From Lysinibacillus pakistanensis (GTDB lineage Bacteria; Bacillota; Bacilli; Bacillales_A; Planococcaceae), in NCBI RefSeq assembly GCF_030123245.1, contig NZ_CP126101.1, positions 184,501 through 248,500 of the forward strand: a stretch of 64,000 bases of DNA, read 5' to 3'. Both the position numbers and the translations under genes were made by a program. Shown here piece by piece: positions 13,856 to 64,000 of this stretch. Every line of letters begins with the position of its first letter. Positions within the stretch are counted from its first letter, which is position 1. A model generated the notes under the pieces. It was not told the origin of the DNA. It did no database searches and was given only the letters and a program-made list of their open reading frames with translations.

Positions 13856-13861
13856 TTAAAA

Positions 13862-13899
13862 AAGAGTGTCTAGTGTAAATATGTACTAGACACTCTTTT
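13862..13899 (+). terminator. Terminator after unknown gene
   Basis: AAGAGTGTCTAGT (13862-13874) pairs with ACTAGACACTCTTTT; the T run ends at 13899, immediately before the MITE-like element begins. Confidence 0.8.
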
Positions 13900-13902
13900 C
13901 AT

Positions 13903-14228
13903 GTTGTTGAAATACTATTATGTCAATGAAATCAAGGTGACAAATTAAAAAGTATTGCCCTTTTTCATAACGAGGGGTTGATCTCCATTCCGACTGAGTG
14001 CTTTCCTGGGGCTGTCCGCTTCGCTTGCCCACTGGAAGCTTTGCTCTGTGCGAAGGCGAAGCGTCAGCAACACGGTCTTATCTGTGCGAAAGCGAAGCGT
14101 CAGCAACACGGTCTTATCTGTGCGAAAGCGAAGCGTCAGCAACAAAGCGAGTAGCCTGGAATGGAAATCACCTTCCTTTTGACTAAATATTCACAAAGAG
14201 TCCCATGACCATTTAGTTTTTCAACACT
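13903..14228 (+). mobile_element. MITE-like repeat element, copy 1 (about 325 bp)
   Basis: The outer ends match as terminal inverted repeats: the left end reads TGTTGAAATACTA and the right end, on the reverse strand, TGTTGAAAAACTA, both followed within 21 bp by GTCA (16 of 21 aligned bases agree by eye). The left 56 bp (13900-13955) are identical to the reverse complement of 16466-16521. The right roughly 72 bp (14157-14228) match 15771-15842 inverted with few changes. The GC-rich interior holds a 36-bp tandem repeat. There is no transposase. ACACTCTTTT occurs at both flanks (about 13890 and 14224), a possible target duplication. Open frames inside are repeat artefacts. Confidence 0.6.
14045..14152. 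repeat. Three tandem 36-bp repeats inside MITE-like copy 1
   Basis: Units begin at 14045, 14081 and 14117, each starting TCTGTGCGAA and containing GCGAAGCGTCAGCAAC. They are contiguous, without spacers, and nearly identical. Related GCGAAAGCGAAGCGTCAGC text occurs near 16362 and at the end of the window, so the unit belongs to a dispersed GC-rich repeat family. Confidence 0.85.
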
Positions 14229-14239
14229 CTTTTTGATGT

Positions 14240-15460
14240 TTATTCTAAAACGCCCTTGTCTTTAAAGGCAGCAATTTCTTCTGCGCTAAAGCCAAGAGCA
14301 GATAACACTTCCTCATTATGCTCTCCGAGTTTGGCGCCAACATGCCTATATTCTGGTTGAGCGCCATCAAATTTAAAGGCAGATGCAATTTGTTTTTGCG
14401 TCGTACCATCGCTTTTGGGAATATCAACAATCATGCCACGAGCCTTTAGCTGTGGGTGCTCGCACGCTTCAGGGAAGGTTAAAACGGGTTCCACACATCC
14501 CTCAAAATCCTCGTTAAACACTTCTAGCCATTCATTATAAGTTTTTGATAAAAAGGCATCATGAACGGCTTCTTTAAAACGAATTTGTGTATAGTATGAA
14601 TCATTAAAAGTATTATCAATAAGCTCAGGAATATCAAGGGCTTCACATAGCAGCTTGCGGAATTGAGGCTCAAGACTTCCTACTGAGAAAAATCTCCCAT
14701 CTTTTGTTTTGTAAAAATCATAGTAGCTACCACCATTTAAAATTTCCTGCTCTGGCTGAGGCACACGTCCCCCTCCAATGTATGCGGCTCCATACATAGC
14801 ATTAAGTGAAAATACAGCATCGGTCATACTAATGTCGACATATTGCCCTTCGCCAGTTTTTTCACGATGTAATGCAGCAGCCAGTACGCCAATTGCAGCA
14901 TGCATGGTGCCTCCTGCAATATCAGCTAACTGAATTCCCATCGAAACGGGTTTTTTATCCTTATGGCGAGAGTAATCCAGTACACCAGCTAATGATAAAT
15001 AATTATTGTCATGTCCTGGACGATTGCTATAAGGTCCCGTTTGACCATAACCAGTAATTGCACAATAAATAACCTTTGGATTAATTTCCTTTAGAGCCTC
15101 ATAGCCAATGCCAAGTCGTTGCATAACGCCAGGTCGAAATCCTTCAATAATAACATCGTACTCATGAACGAGTGACTTCACGATTTCCACAGCCTCGGGC
15201 GATTTTAAATTTAACGTTAATGACTTTTTAGAACGATTTAAATGTTGGTGTATATATGCCTCATGATCGTCATCATAAGGAGGCATGATTCGTGTTAAGT
15301 CCACGCGCTTTGAAGATTCAACGTGGATAACCTCCGCACCTAAATCAGCAAATATCATTGTTGCCATTGGCCCCGGTAGTAATGCAGAAAAATCGAGAAT
15401 TTTTAACCCCTTTAAAATACCCAAATCTCCCAACCCCTTTTGTGTAGCTACTAATGCCAC
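14240..15460 (-). CDS. CaiB/BaiF family protein, alpha-methylacyl-CoA-racemase-like
   Basis: A 406-aa class III CoA-transferase fold protein. Beside the family core (LKILDFSALLPGPMATM, DLGAEVIHVES), it shows racemase features: GHDNNYL with His150-Asp151, Asp180 in ADIAGG, and Glu in VGSLEPQF near 283, the positions matching the catalytic His/Asp/Glu set of mycobacterial alpha-methylacyl-CoA racemase. It may therefore epimerise 2-methylacyl-CoA thioesters rather than move CoA. The GTG at 15460 gives this length; a TTG at 15424 (giving GILKGLKILDFS), preceded by AAAGGGG and GGGAG, is a credible alternative start. It is flanked by two inverted repeat-element copies and a palindrome lies upstream. 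Confidence 0.88.
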   Translation of the reverse strand: MALVATQKGLGDLGILKGLKILDFSALLPGPMATMIFADLGAEVIHVESSKRVDLTRIMPPYDDDHEAYIHQHLNRSKKSLTLNLKSPEAVEIVKSLVHEYDVIIEGFRPGVMQRLGIGYEALKEINPKVIYCAITGYGQTGPYSNRPGHDNNYLSLAGVLDYSRHKDKKPVSMGIQLADIAGGTMHAAIGVLAAALHREKTGEGQYVDISMTDAVFSLNAMYGAAYIGGGRVPQPEQEILNGGSYYDFYKTKDGRFFSVGSLEPQFRKLLCEALDIPELIDNTFNDSYYTQIRFKEAVHDAFLSKTYNEWLEVFNEDFEGCVEPVLTFPEACEHPQLKARGMIVDIPKSDGTTQKQIASAFKFDGAQPEYRHVGAKLGEHNEEVLSALGFSAEEIAAFKDKGVLE

Positions 15461-15520
15461 CTATATTAAGAGACTTAGTAGCTTTTCTCTTAACCCCATT
15501 TTGAGAAGCGTATATTGCGT

Positions 15521-15534
15521 CTGTATTAATACAG
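15521..15534. promoter_or_regulatory. 14-bp palindrome upstream of CaiB-like gene
   Basis: CTGTATTAATACAG is a perfect palindrome about 60 bp upstream of the GTG start, close to where a minus-strand promoter would sit. A repressor operator is plausible. The rest of the 15461-15728 gap is AT-rich with nothing else supported. Confidence 0.35.
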
Positions 15535-15728
15535 AATACTATAAATTTATCAGTATTATAACAGAAAAAATGATGGCTTGACTATGCTAATTTTTATTAT
15601 AAAATAATTAGTCTGAAAATTATATGTCAGAATAACAATAAAAGTAAAAAAATTTCGAATATAGATTTTCTGTCAAATTTCAGATAATAATCACCTTTTA
15701 TTTGAAGATTCTGTAAATAAAAAAAGCG

Positions 15729-15767
15729 AAAAAATCTCTATGTAATAGAAAATACATAGAGATTTTT
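15729..15767. terminator. Orphan terminator-like hairpin at the left edge of MITE-like copy 2
   Basis: AAAAAATCTCTATGTA pairs with TACATAGAGATTTTT. No gene ends here on either strand. An almost identical hairpin lies at 16522-16552 on the other side of the element, suggesting that the element and its flank were duplicated together or inserted at such hairpins. Confidence 0.55.
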
Positions 15768-15770
15768 CAT

Positions 15771-16521
15771 AGTGTTGAAAAACTAAATGGTCAAGGGACT
15801 CTTTGTGAATATTTAGTCAAAATGAAGGTGATTTACGTTCCAGGCTACTCGCTTTCCTGTGGGCGAGCGACGAGCCGCTTCGCTGCTGATGACGCTCCGT
15901 GCAGGGTCTCGTCTGTCTCGCTATCCCACGGGAGTCGGGTAGCCTTCCACTCCAATCAGCAATAGTGTAGAACTTTAAATATTTTCTTCCCTTAAAAGTA
16001 AAGTAAAGCATATTACTTACTATTTATTAAATGAGATAGAATAGTTGGTACAATCCCATATGGTTGTCAACCACATTTTTGTGCATAAAAATACTTTATA
16101 ACTAAACATAAAACCTCTTACCACCTTGTCGTACTGCTTTTCGCATAGAAAAAATGTTATCAGCTTCATTTTCACGAAAATAGTGATGGTTAAGACTTAA
16201 ATTTATTACTATACATTTATGTGAGAAATGCCAACGAAAATACTATGAGCGGTGGTTGATTGGAGTGTAGACTGAGTGATTCCTCAGGGTTCAGCGTCAC
16301 AGATGAGAACCCTGGAACGCCAGTGAAGCGGCTCATCGGACGCCCCAGGAAGCTCTGCTCTGCGCGAAAGCGAAGCGTCAGCGGCAAATGTTTTCTGTAG
16401 CGAAAGCAAAGCAGCTACAAAGCCCTCAGTCGACGGAAATCAACCCCTCATCTTGAAAAAGGGTTATACTTTTTAATTTGTCACCTTGATTTCATTGACA
16501 TAATAGTATTTCAACAACATG
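15771..16521 (-). mobile_element. MITE-like repeat element, copy 2 (about 750 bp, inverted)
   Basis: Bounded by the same ends as copy 1 but in inverted orientation (AGTGTTGAAAAACTA at the left, and the 56-bp identity at 16466-16521 on the right). The interior is longer: a GC-rich fold-back at about 15840-15955 in which GGCTAC...CCTGTGGG pairs imperfectly with CCCACGGGAG...GTAGCC; an AT-rich centre (about 15960-16250); and a second GC-rich block (16250-16450) with GCGAAAGCGAAGCGTCAGCG. No transposase or credible coding sequence is present, so it is non-autonomous. This accounts for most of the 1.1-kb gap between the CaiB-like and CAP genes. Confidence 0.6.
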
Positions 16522-16552
16522 AAAAATCTCTATGTAATACATAGAGATTTTT
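16522..16552 (-). terminator. Terminator of CAP-domain gene
   Basis: AAAAATCTCTATGTA (16522-16536) pairs perfectly with TACATAGAGATTTTT (16538-16552). It follows the minus-strand CAP gene by about 40 bp. Confidence 0.75.
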
Positions 16553-52274: not shown

Positions 52275-52552
52275 AATATAAGAAAACCTCCTATTGGATA
52301 AGTTTGTTGGCTGATTAGTCCTAAGTGAAAAACTGGGCCTTGGATAGTTAGAATATAATTCGATGATTAAATTAGTCTATATATATAAATTTTCCATCCT
52401 AAGTTATGATGTTAAACCAATTTTATCATAGTTTAGGATTTTTTTATGTATATTTTGAGTGAATAGGTCAATAGGCTATACGTTTTTAATTGACTTCGTG
52501 TCTTATGTACTTAAAACGAAGAAGAACTAATAGAAATATTTTAAATAGGGAC

Positions 52553-52621
52553 GGATAGAATTTGCAAAATGGCGGATAGAATGATTCAACTGAAGGATAG
52601 ATTTTTAAAACTGAATGATAG
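52553..52621. repeat. 21-bp-period GGATAG tandem repeat array 1
   Basis: Units start at 52553, 52574 and 52595 with GGATAGA and end at 52616 with a degenerate TGATAG; two of the three units close with AACTGAA. The spacing is exactly 21 bp although the middle bases vary. It lies in the 474-bp gap between the divergent exported-protein and EAL-HDOD genes, which otherwise contains only AT-rich promoter-like sequence. A second array with the same period and ends lies at 54750-54858. Confidence 0.75.
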
Positions 52622-54498: not shown

Positions 54499-54784
54499 TG
54501 ATGTTGTTTTAAATAAGGTTGCAACAATCGAACGATGTATGAATCGAGTCCGGGAAGTGTATAACGATAATCCTGAAAATTTAATGGATTTTATCAAGCA
54601 GGATAGTATTATTTTAAATATTCAACGAGCATGTGAGGCTAGTATTGATTTGGCCATGCATATAGTTAGTGATTTAAAGCTTGGTTTGCCTAAAACAAGT
54701 CGAGAAGCATTCAAGTTGCTCGAGGACAATAACTTATATAACGTAAAACGGATAGAATGGTCGAACTGGTGGATAGCACCTTAA
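54488..54784 (+). CDS. hepT: HepT-like HEPN (DUF86) toxin, C-terminally truncated
   Basis: About 98 aa from ATG 54488 (AAGAGGTAG upstream). The first 85 residues are a normal HepT start: VLNKVATIERCMNRVREVY, DFIKQDSIILNIQRACEASIDLAMHIVS and TSREAFKLLEDNN, in pieces. The frame then runs into the GGATAG repeat array and ends as VKRIEWSNWWIAP. HepT proteins are normally about 140 aa, and their RNase motif R-x4-6-H-x-Y lies in the part that is missing. The toxin is therefore probably inactive, while mntA is intact. Confidence 0.8.
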   Translation: MVNNDVVLNKVATIERCMNRVREVYNDNPENLMDFIKQDSIILNIQRACEASIDLAMHIVSDLKLGLPKTSREAFKLLEDNNLYNVKRIEWSNWWIAP

Positions 54785-54858
54785 AAGTGACGGATAGAAC
54801 CACTAAACTGAAGGATAGCCCTTCAAAACCGAAGGATAGAGCAGACTTCGCTCTATCC
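54750..54858. repeat. 21-bp-period GGATAG tandem repeat array 2
   Basis: Five units start at exactly 54750, 54771, 54792, 54813 and 54834, each with GGATAG. Units end in AACTGGT, AAGTGAC, AACTGAA and AACCGAA; the middle bases differ. The last unit folds into a terminator hairpin. The array replaces the 3' end of hepT. It is the same family as 52553-52621. Confidence 0.8.
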
Positions 54859-59447: not shown

Positions 59448-61373
59448 TTACTGCCAATAATTTCCATTATTAATACCGTTTCTTTGAGCATTTTTGTAAG
59501 TCGTAATAGCAGTATTTAAATTATAGACGGCATTAGAAATATCGTTTTGAGTAGCGTAATAATTATTTACCACTGCTTGTGCAGATGAAACGGCTGACTC
59601 CATTGCAGATCTCTCAGTAGGAGTTGTCCAAAGCGTGTTATATGATAAGTTGTAACCGTCCCAAGAAGTTGTCACATATTGAACAGAATTAATTAGATTT
59701 TGTAATGATGTTTTATCTCCATAATATCCATTCGTACTATTTCTTTGAGCATTTTTGTAATTCGTTATAGCGTTATTTAAATTATTAATTGCATTGGAAA
59801 TATCGTTTTGAGTAGCGTAATAATTATTTACCACTGCTTGTGCAGATGAAACTGCTGACTCCATTGCAGATTTCTCAGTAGGAGTTGTCCAAGGCGTGTT
59901 ATATGACAAGTTATAACCGTCCCAAGAAGTTGTAACATACTGAACAGAATTGATTAGTGCTTGTAATGATGTTTTATCTGTACCGTATCCAGCAGTCCTA
60001 TTTCTTTGAGCATTTTTGTAAGTCGTAATAGCATTATTTAAATTATAGATGGCATTAGAAATATCGTTTTGAGTAGCGTAGTAATTATTCACCACTGCTT
60101 GTGCAGATGAAACTGCTGACTCCATTGCAGATCTCTCAGTAGGAGTTGTCCAAGGCGTGGTATTTGATAAGTTATAGCCATCCCAAGAAGTTGTCACATA
60201 TTGAACAGAATTGATTAGATTTTGTAATGATGTTTTATCACCATTTCCATACCCATACTTCGTTCCATTTTTCTGCACAGCTTGATAGTTTGCTAATGCA
60301 GTTTTGTATTGTGTAATAGCATTGTTCACTTGCTCCTGTGAAGCACTCGCATTATTAGCTACTGCTTTCGCATTTGTAACGGCTGCTTCAAATGCGTTAC
60401 GATCCGTTTGTGTTGTCCATTTTTCAGTTGATAAAACGTCATTTCCATAAACAGAGACCGGAACATATGGAGGGGAAGTTAGTAATTTATTTAATTCAGT
60501 TTTATTTGCCACAGGTAGTGTTACAGAAGCTTTGCTATCATCTACCTGTACTTTAGTAACAATATGTCCTGAATCTAAAGCTACCTTTGCACCACCACTA
60601 ACAGTAATTTGCTCAATTTTACCTTCCCCATAAAGGCTAAAATCTTTGTCAACATCGATGATTAGTTTATCAACATTTGATGAAACCTCAAATGCAGCCA
60701 CTTTATCAACGACTTTGATAGTTGAAATTGTTTGGTTAGAGGATACATCCACTTTTGTACGTTCTACGTTAAGCGTAGCCGATTTTACATCATTTAGAGA
60801 AACATTAAGCCAATTAATTTTTCTTGCCGTAAGAGGTTTAAAGGTAATTCCATCCCCAATTGTTACTTTATCAAGTGAGAATGATTTTTTTACACGACTT
60901 GTAACAATGAGCTCATCCTCGATAGCTACATTTTCAACTTTTACATAATCTGCATCGACAGTTAGGCTTCCTTCAATCTTCGCGTCTCCGCCATCGAAAT
61001 ACACTGTCTTTTTGTTAGTGCCAGCTTTTTTCAATGTTAGTGATGTGACGCTAGTAATTTCACCCTTTTTAACGACAATTGTAGCTTGCGCATTCGTTAA
61101 GGCCGTGCTATTTGCAGTTTTAAAGAGTGATTTAAGAGAATCACTAATATTATATTGTCCGTTAGAAGTACGCACCTTATCCTTTGTAATATTAGTAATA
61201 GTAACTGCATCTCCTGCTGGAACCTTCGTTTTTGTAGCAGCCAATCGTTCACCAATTTGAATTGACTGGTTTACAGATGAATCACTAGAAGCAGCGTTTA
61301 CAGGTGCCACTGGCAATACTAAGGTTGCTGTAAGAGCAGTTGCCATAAAAGTTGATAACGCTTTATTTTTCAT
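59448..61373 (-). CDS. Exported FIVAR-like repeat protein
   Basis: About 641 aa from ATG 61373 (GGAGTG upstream; the longer frame adds six residues). Signal peptide to about VNAAS (residue 28). An N-terminal region (about 30-290) has beta-helix-like short repeats (KKTVYFDGGDAKIEGSLTVD, ADYVKVENVAI, EQITVSGGAKVALDSGH). One degenerate and three nearly identical C-terminal FIVAR-like helical units of 87 residues follow, each with SVQYVTTSWDGYNLS, ESAVSSAQAVVNNYYATQ and AITTYKNAQRN. No SLH or sortase motif is seen. Probable cell-surface or matrix protein; the repeat number may vary. Confidence 0.78.
   Translation of the reverse strand: MKNKALSTFMATALTATLVLPVAPVNAASSDSSVNQSIQIGERLAATKTKVPAGDAVTITNITKDKVRTSNGQYNISDSLKSLFKTANSTALTNAQATIVVKKGEITSVTSLTLKKAGTNKKTVYFDGGDAKIEGSLTVDADYVKVENVAIEDELIVTSRVKKSFSLDKVTIGDGITFKPLTARKINWLNVSLNDVKSATLNVERTKVDVSSNQTISTIKVVDKVAAFEVSSNVDKLIIDVDKDFSLYGEGKIEQITVSGGAKVALDSGHIVTKVQVDDSKASVTLPVANKTELNKLLTSPPYVPVSVYGNDVLSTEKWTTQTDRNAFEAAVTNAKAVANNASASQEQVNNAITQYKTALANYQAVQKNGTKYGYGNGDKTSLQNLINSVQYVTTSWDGYNLSNTTPWTTPTERSAMESAVSSAQAVVNNYYATQNDISNAIYNLNNAITTYKNAQRNRTAGYGTDKTSLQALINSVQYVTTSWDGYNLSYNTPWTTPTEKSAMESAVSSAQAVVNNYYATQNDISNAINNLNNAITNYKNAQRNSTNGYYGDKTSLQNLINSVQYVTTSWDGYNLSYNTLWTTPTERSAMESAVSSAQAVVNNYYATQNDISNAVYNLNTAITTYKNAQRNGINNGNYWQ
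59481..60263. repeat. Three 261-bp tandem repeats within the FIVAR-like gene
   Basis: The marker TCTTTGAGCA recurs at 59481, 59742 and 60003, exactly 261 bp (87 codons) apart. The units are nearly identical at the DNA level, with only scattered changes, pointing to recent duplication or gene conversion. A fourth, degenerate unit lies further into the coding strand at about 60264-60520. Confidence 0.9.
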
Positions 61374-63837: not shown

Positions 63838-64000
63838 TCAGCAAATGTTTTTTGTATCGAAAGTAAAGCGGTAGATGTTTTATGCGCGTAAGCAAAGCGG
63901 CAGCGGCAGATACAGAAGATTCACACCTCAACAGTTGGAGAGATGAATGGGATTTTGGCTCCTTTTCAGTGGGTGTCCAAACACTTACTGAAATTGGGGA
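63838..64000. repeat. Fragment of the GC-rich dispersed repeat family, running off the window
   Basis: TCAGC..AAATGTTTTTTGTA.CGAAAG.AAAGC matches the interior of MITE-like copy 2 (about 16379-16415) closely, followed by AAGCAAAGCGGCAGCGGCAG. No terminal repeat is visible before the window ends, so its extent is unknown. Confidence 0.5.

Follow-up and report, generated by a model that had tools for sequence, protein, structure and literature searches.

Two related sequences lie in opposite orientation on either side of a CaiB-like gene in the 64,000-nucleotide stretch of DNA analysed here (the window), and the arrangement raises three questions: what these sequences are, how each came to its place, and whether recombination between them could turn the gene around. 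That element copies in inverted orientation surround this racemase- or CaiB-like gene had been put forward in a preliminary description, and the copies are real, as positions 13896-13986 match 16435-16525 over 91 nt (93%) and 14144-14228 match 15771-15855 over 85 nt (95%). The reading that we favor, with a probability of roughly 0.8 and on the strength of sequence comparisons, is that both belong to a family of MITEs moved by a transposase of the IS1182 family, insertion of which would duplicate the target hairpin whole. The features of the locus are collected in Table 1.

Table 1. Coordinates of the two element copies, their hairpins, and the intervening gene (window positions)
Feature	Position	Strand	Remark
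Putative terminator hairpin, intact, outer side of copy 1	13860..13899	.	palindrome AAAAGAGTGTCTAGT...ACTAGACACTCTTTT
MITE copy 1, short form	13900..14226	+	outer CTATG of right end missing
Three tandem 36-bp units within copy 1	14045..14152	.	tandem repeat
Remnant ACACTCTTTTT of copy 1's second hairpin	14224..14234	.	remainder lost
CaiB-like gene, CoA-transferase family III (PF02515), between the copies	14240..15460	-	neighbor, outside the element
Hairpin copy of 38 nt, between copy 2 and the CaiB-like gene	15730..15767	.	palindrome
MITE copy 2, 754 bp	15768..16521	-	opposite in orientation to copy 1
Copy 2's second hairpin, 31 nt, loop 7 nt shorter	16522..16552	.	palindrome

The two copies and their family

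The terminal inverted repeat of the element is CATGTTGTTGAAATACTA / CATAGTGTTGAAAAACTA. Because CATGT/CATAG stays invariant among copies with different flanks, this repeat, the presence of which had been recognized, extends further than was first given. The left end reads CATGTTGTTGAAATACTATTATGTCAATGAAATCAAGGTGACAAATTA and the right end, in the inward direction, CATAGTGTTGAAAAACTAAATGGTCAAGGGACTC. Between the ends the sequence is variable; the description of the interiors as GC-rich holds for blocks at 55-63% GC but not for 15960-16249, at 28% GC (window, 36.6%). The longest open frame in the window copies is at most 66 aa with ATG, GTG, or TTG starts, so that neither has a transposase of its own. 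Parts of the interiors have matches among intergenic repeats at related loci (5 of 23 for copy 2, 4 of 23 for copy 1), and the conserved ends have none there; the element thus seems to harbor a distinct Lysinibacillus repeat. A search of Rfam at E values up to 1 returned a single match, to mir-6095, at 23.1 bits against a family cut-off of 100 (E 0.91). Several repeats were seen outside the two copies. The GC-rich repeat of the interiors has a short match at 63841-63904, and the 36-bp unit of copy 1 recurs in a longer array next to the CaiB-like gene of a relative without MITE ends (L087, 4324-4720). Elsewhere in the window, a 261-bp unit occurs in three tandem copies, 89-90% alike, at 59469-60251, and spaced 21-bp repeats with the motif GGATAGA occupy two places, 52532-52621 and 54729-54839.

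With up to three mismatches allowed, the left end matches at 43 places and the right end at 24 in this 5.25-Mb Lysinibacillus-type genome (G000), whereas reversed control patterns in the same search match nowhere; the repeats are thus not unique to this locus. The left end matches 42 times in a relative, G021, and has no match in the other 30 of the 32 genus genomes searched; copy 2 found no match in the plasmid and phage collections. Throughout, the two ends are paired in a single fixed order, 332-791 bp in size in 36 of the 43 measured copies and 1956-2566 bp in the other seven. The seven long copies were considered as the source of the transposase and rejected, their transposase or intron frames (one of each kind domain-scanned, three of the seven in all) belonging to other mobile elements: a DDE_Tnp_1 IS, IS4-like by our reading, in L035, L050, and L051; a rve-domain IS (IS3-like), at differing positions, in L038, L048, and L057; and a group II intron reverse transcriptase in L061. 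One further locus, L049 (G000 C1:1894492-1894957), has a right end without a left end, along with repeated interior units.

Multicopy occurrence of the same two ends, terminal inverted repeats, want of a transposase, duplication of the target, and ends in common with an IS together make the window copies MITEs, and the proposal of a non-autonomous mobile family is thereby borne out. A target duplication is typical of MITEs, but its variable length here is unusual.

Duplication of entire palindromes at the insertion sites

By a strict, ungapped score, matching palindromes of 18-49 bp stand on both sides of 36 of 43 copies in G000, 24 of them letter-perfect. Among these 43 rows are the two window copies and a degenerate one, L033 +; L068, for which no right end was found, and L049, which has a right end only, are excluded. 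When flanks were deliberately mispaired, 1 of 1806 combinations matched, that of L032 with L067, the latter a composite with an IS that is taken up below. Three of the remaining copies have matching hairpins by eye, namely L044 and L047 (both diverged) and window copy 2, which leaves four failures: L033, degenerate; L064, with one arm degraded; the L067 composite; and window copy 1. Both window copies miss the strict score, copy 2 with loops that differ in length by 7 nt and copy 1 with one hairpin mostly deleted, probably by a deletion at a 5-bp match (AGTGT); the surviving remnant fits copy 1's own hairpin. In G021, where the 34 of 42 copies with both ends inside the stretch were scored, 31 have a duplicated palindrome; of the other three, L272 carries the same hairpin with an indel, and L171 and L274 have unlike flanks.

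The junctions are dyad-symmetric. Their outermost six positions pair at 93% in G000 and 89% in G021; displacing one end by 1-5 bases brings this down to 41% at most. Of the 67 duplicated segments, 59 have A as their first base and 59 have T as their last, and for 40 there is no additional base pair beyond the segment. The target, then, is a palindrome, mostly at a gene end, and the entire palindrome is duplicated. That these hairpins are terminators is suggested by their sequence and position: a T-rich stretch 3' or an A-rich stretch 5' of the hairpin accompanies 27 of 36, and the stop codon of a frame of at least 90 aa pointing at the hairpin lies within 150 bp in 30 of 36 (G000) and 23 of 31 (G021). 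On the other side, 6 of 67 hairpins (three in each genome) fall within open stretches of at least 90 aa. Because the whole hairpin is duplicated, the adjacent genes would usually retain their stop signals after insertion, which would give a mobile element a route into gene ends that does not remove the terminator.

As most copies have a hairpin directly against each end, the hairpins might instead be part of the mobile unit and travel with it, and in the C1:4.70 Mb composite a hairpin did move along between the IS and the MITE. Such an explanation is scarcely tenable in general, however, given that the hairpins vary from copy to copy, with the one match among 1806 mispairs, and that each of the window sites is occupied in relatives by a lone hairpin of the same type. 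Twenty relatives' loci were compared per site (for copy 1, out of 79 returned, the remainder more distant). At the copy-1 site, 16 of the 20 have a single hairpin of the GTGTCT/GTGTCC type, three have another single hairpin, and one has none; at the copy-2 site, a single ATCTCTATG-type hairpin is present in six and not visible in the stretch shown for the other 14. The duplicated hairpins are hence best regarded as target, a feature that the preliminary description, right about the mobile family, had overlooked.

The same flanks bear on the suggestion that recombination between the copies could invert the CaiB-like gene, so that they would act as a switch. An exchange of this kind would give the copies hybrid flanks, yet the hairpins match in cis (the 36 strict cases and the three by eye), and inversion is not supported by the assembled sequence. 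The inverted identity on either side of the gene (91 plus 85 nt), and the inverted orientation of 8 of the 12 close pairs in the genome, do lend the idea some appeal; 8 of 12 is unremarkable, however, and we hold a switch to be very improbable. Close pairs as such are commoner than random placement predicts when a cut chosen post hoc is applied (12 gaps shorter than 13 kb versus 4.6 expected, p 0.0002), and gaps shorter than 5 kb number 3 versus 1.9 expected (p 0.28); local hopping or clustered targets are perhaps responsible for the excess.

The IS1182-family element and a proposed route to hairpin duplication

A transposase-bearing relative with matching ends, the search for which had been recommended, does exist: G000 carries a 1552-bp IS of the IS1182 family, the 464-aa transposase of which scores 288 bits for NF033551 (NCBIfam; cut-off 270). 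An early idea that the ends were Tn7-like was dropped once this IS had been found. The left end of the MITE agrees with the left end of the IS at 28 of 32 positions and the right with the right at 20 of 26, where the best shuffles score 21 and 16; for the right end the pairing is weak, with 24/32 to the right end of the IS versus 22/32 to its left. Among 32 genus genomes, the transposase occurs at an identity of at least 99% only in G000 (three full copies and one partial) and G021 (five), the same two in which the MITE is present. Given G000, the chance that the second genome would coincide is 1 in 31 by our arithmetic, and common descent may explain the co-occurrence.

Whole-hairpin duplications also surround full copies of the IS itself, in one of three cases in G000, four of five in G021, and the single case of a 63% relative in G010. 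The shortest target seen is at L209 (G021 C1:3.417 Mb), where the IS sits in a 14-bp palindrome, ACAATTGTAATTGT, that is fully duplicated. Two of the three full copies in G000 have unlike hairpins, and the composite accounts for only one of these; the unlike hairpins left unexplained are those beside L076 (G000) and L217 (G021). The right hairpin of L217 is also the hairpin of the MITE L171. By eye, four of the eight full IS copies adjoin an element end across a common hairpin, the neighbor of one of them, L203, being outside the MITE set.

At C1:4.70 Mb, one hairpin encloses the IS, a second hairpin, and a MITE. This composite is best read as a single transposition that used an IS end and a MITE end, and would thus lend indirect support to movement of MITE ends by the IS transposase. 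The simplest donor for it would be L032, whose hairpin (hairpin 2) it carries; its MITE is, however, closer to L031 (99.7%) than to L032 (98.3%), and L031, this nearest relative, lacks hairpin 2, which argues against that donor. Another, unseen IS with similar ends could have moved the MITE instead, for MITE and IS are alike at their ends only, and 30 of 38 positions in the left end of the MITE agree with an end of the G010 IS. With the IS at 99% identity or more in exactly the two MITE-bearing genomes, and adjoining element ends across common hairpins in half of its full copies, we consider an unseen mover unlikely.

DDE transposases generally produce short target duplications of fixed length. 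A fixed stagger on plain duplex does not readily explain a duplication whose length varies with that of the target. If the IS1182-family transposase moved the MITE, we infer that it would join both 3' ends of the element at the base of an extruded hairpin or cruciform, one to each 5' foot. Such feet would be adjacent whatever the length of the arms, and gap filling would then copy the entire hairpin, the length of the duplication being set by the target rather than by the enzyme. Each insertion would leave a hairpin on both sides, turning one landing site into two, and elements could stack. On this mechanism, each window copy would have inserted on its own, one at either end of the CaiB-like gene.

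Repeated use of the same sites can be followed between genomes. G000 and G021 have eight insertion sites in common, seven recognized from both flanks and the eighth from a single flank (two extra one-flank matches, L255 and L274, were left out), with the elements opposite in orientation at six and the same at two; the copy-1 terminator is occupied in G021 in the opposite orientation. The site partners rank 9, 41, 32, 25, 31, 19, 9, and 2 of 41 in similarity, the low ranks of copy 1 and L061 being due in part to short or interrupted length. As the partners are not nearest relatives, the same terminators, that of copy 1 included, were probably hit independently in the two genomes. The preponderance of opposite orientations might alternatively reflect inherited copies flipped in place, with the flanking palindromes serving as inverted repeats; this is distinctly unlikely in view of the ranks, among which only the partner of rank 2 could be inherited.

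Known hairpin-targeting elements and the wider IS1182 family

Two staphylococcal members of the IS1182 family, IS1272 and TnSha1, are reported to target hairpins, often terminators, without sequence preference (PMC5678879, PMC4923244). They resemble the present element in transposase family and in choice of target but, in the accounts given there, the target hairpin is lost in whole or in part and target duplications do not arise, as in the hairpin targets with deletion of Furi et al. (PMC4923244), whereas here the hairpin is duplicated rather than replaced. In the model for IS1272, whole-hairpin duplication is drawn only as a hypothetical branch (Wan et al., PMC5678879, Fig. 13, pathway b), and in the literature covered, with most subscription journals outside that scope, this is the only place where we found it. 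From the sequences compared, the 5'-feet branch of that model likely applies to the MITE family. Dozens of natural insertions that duplicate their target hairpin, at any length, now stand beside a staphylococcal family member that deletes it, and the hypothetical branch becomes directly testable.

Further parallels are partial. MITEs of 160 and 169 bp in the archaeal genus Methanosarcina have been assigned in print to an IS1182 element (ISMac2), with repeat sizes of 26/4 and 25/0, and we found no mention of hairpin targets for them there (PMC3852290). IS1634 and IS1549 likewise generate long, variable target duplications, of 8-514 bp, but belong to another family; the account of them states that no model had been put forward, and we found no link to palindromes there (PMC2266710).

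Closer at hand, IS1182 elements with ends CAGANTGTNGACAAA (Planococcaceae, Enterococcus casseliflavus) likewise duplicate whole hairpins, while differing in their terminal repeats and in a transposase identity of only 31-32%. ISfinder gives IS1182 repeats of 0-60 bp, and its curators may therefore have recorded long repeats already. Within this distant IS1182 group, with ends CAGACTGTAGACAAA, inspection by eye finds hairpin duplications at 13 of 15 loci (L206, a sixteenth, is outside the count). An order-wide scan of 120 genomes found 42 with a match at E <= 1e-80; at 8 of 31 loci (33 named, L236 and L241 left out) a duplication was detected by script, in every case with CAGACTGTAGACAAA-type ends and against 3 of 930 in the control, and two of the eight, L225 and L227, are the same places as in the by-eye set. 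One of four named plasmid IS1182 copies, in E. casseliflavus, has a palindromic duplication (19 bp); those of ISEfa7 and ISCfr1 have no direct repeat of at least 12 bp in their 700-bp flanks, and the L. capsici copy sits in a tandem pair.

In a tree of transposases, the 14 duplicating rows fall within one group of 17 (support 83/70, with long branches meeting), a clustering that is partly by choice, as six of them (L076, L195, L197, L198, L199, L215) were selected because they duplicate; outside the group, 0 of 14 rows have a duplication by script. We lean somewhat toward the view that DNA structure is what one group of IS1182-type transposases recognizes, with 5'-feet strand transfer, a duplication length set by the target, and a duplicated terminator that would provide a second landing site, so that the family would spread at gene ends and multiply its own targets. 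In G007, a genome without a left-end match, ends resembling the right end of the MITE (CATAGTGTTGAAAAAC) lie at L211 and L215 beside a copy of the distant IS1182 element.
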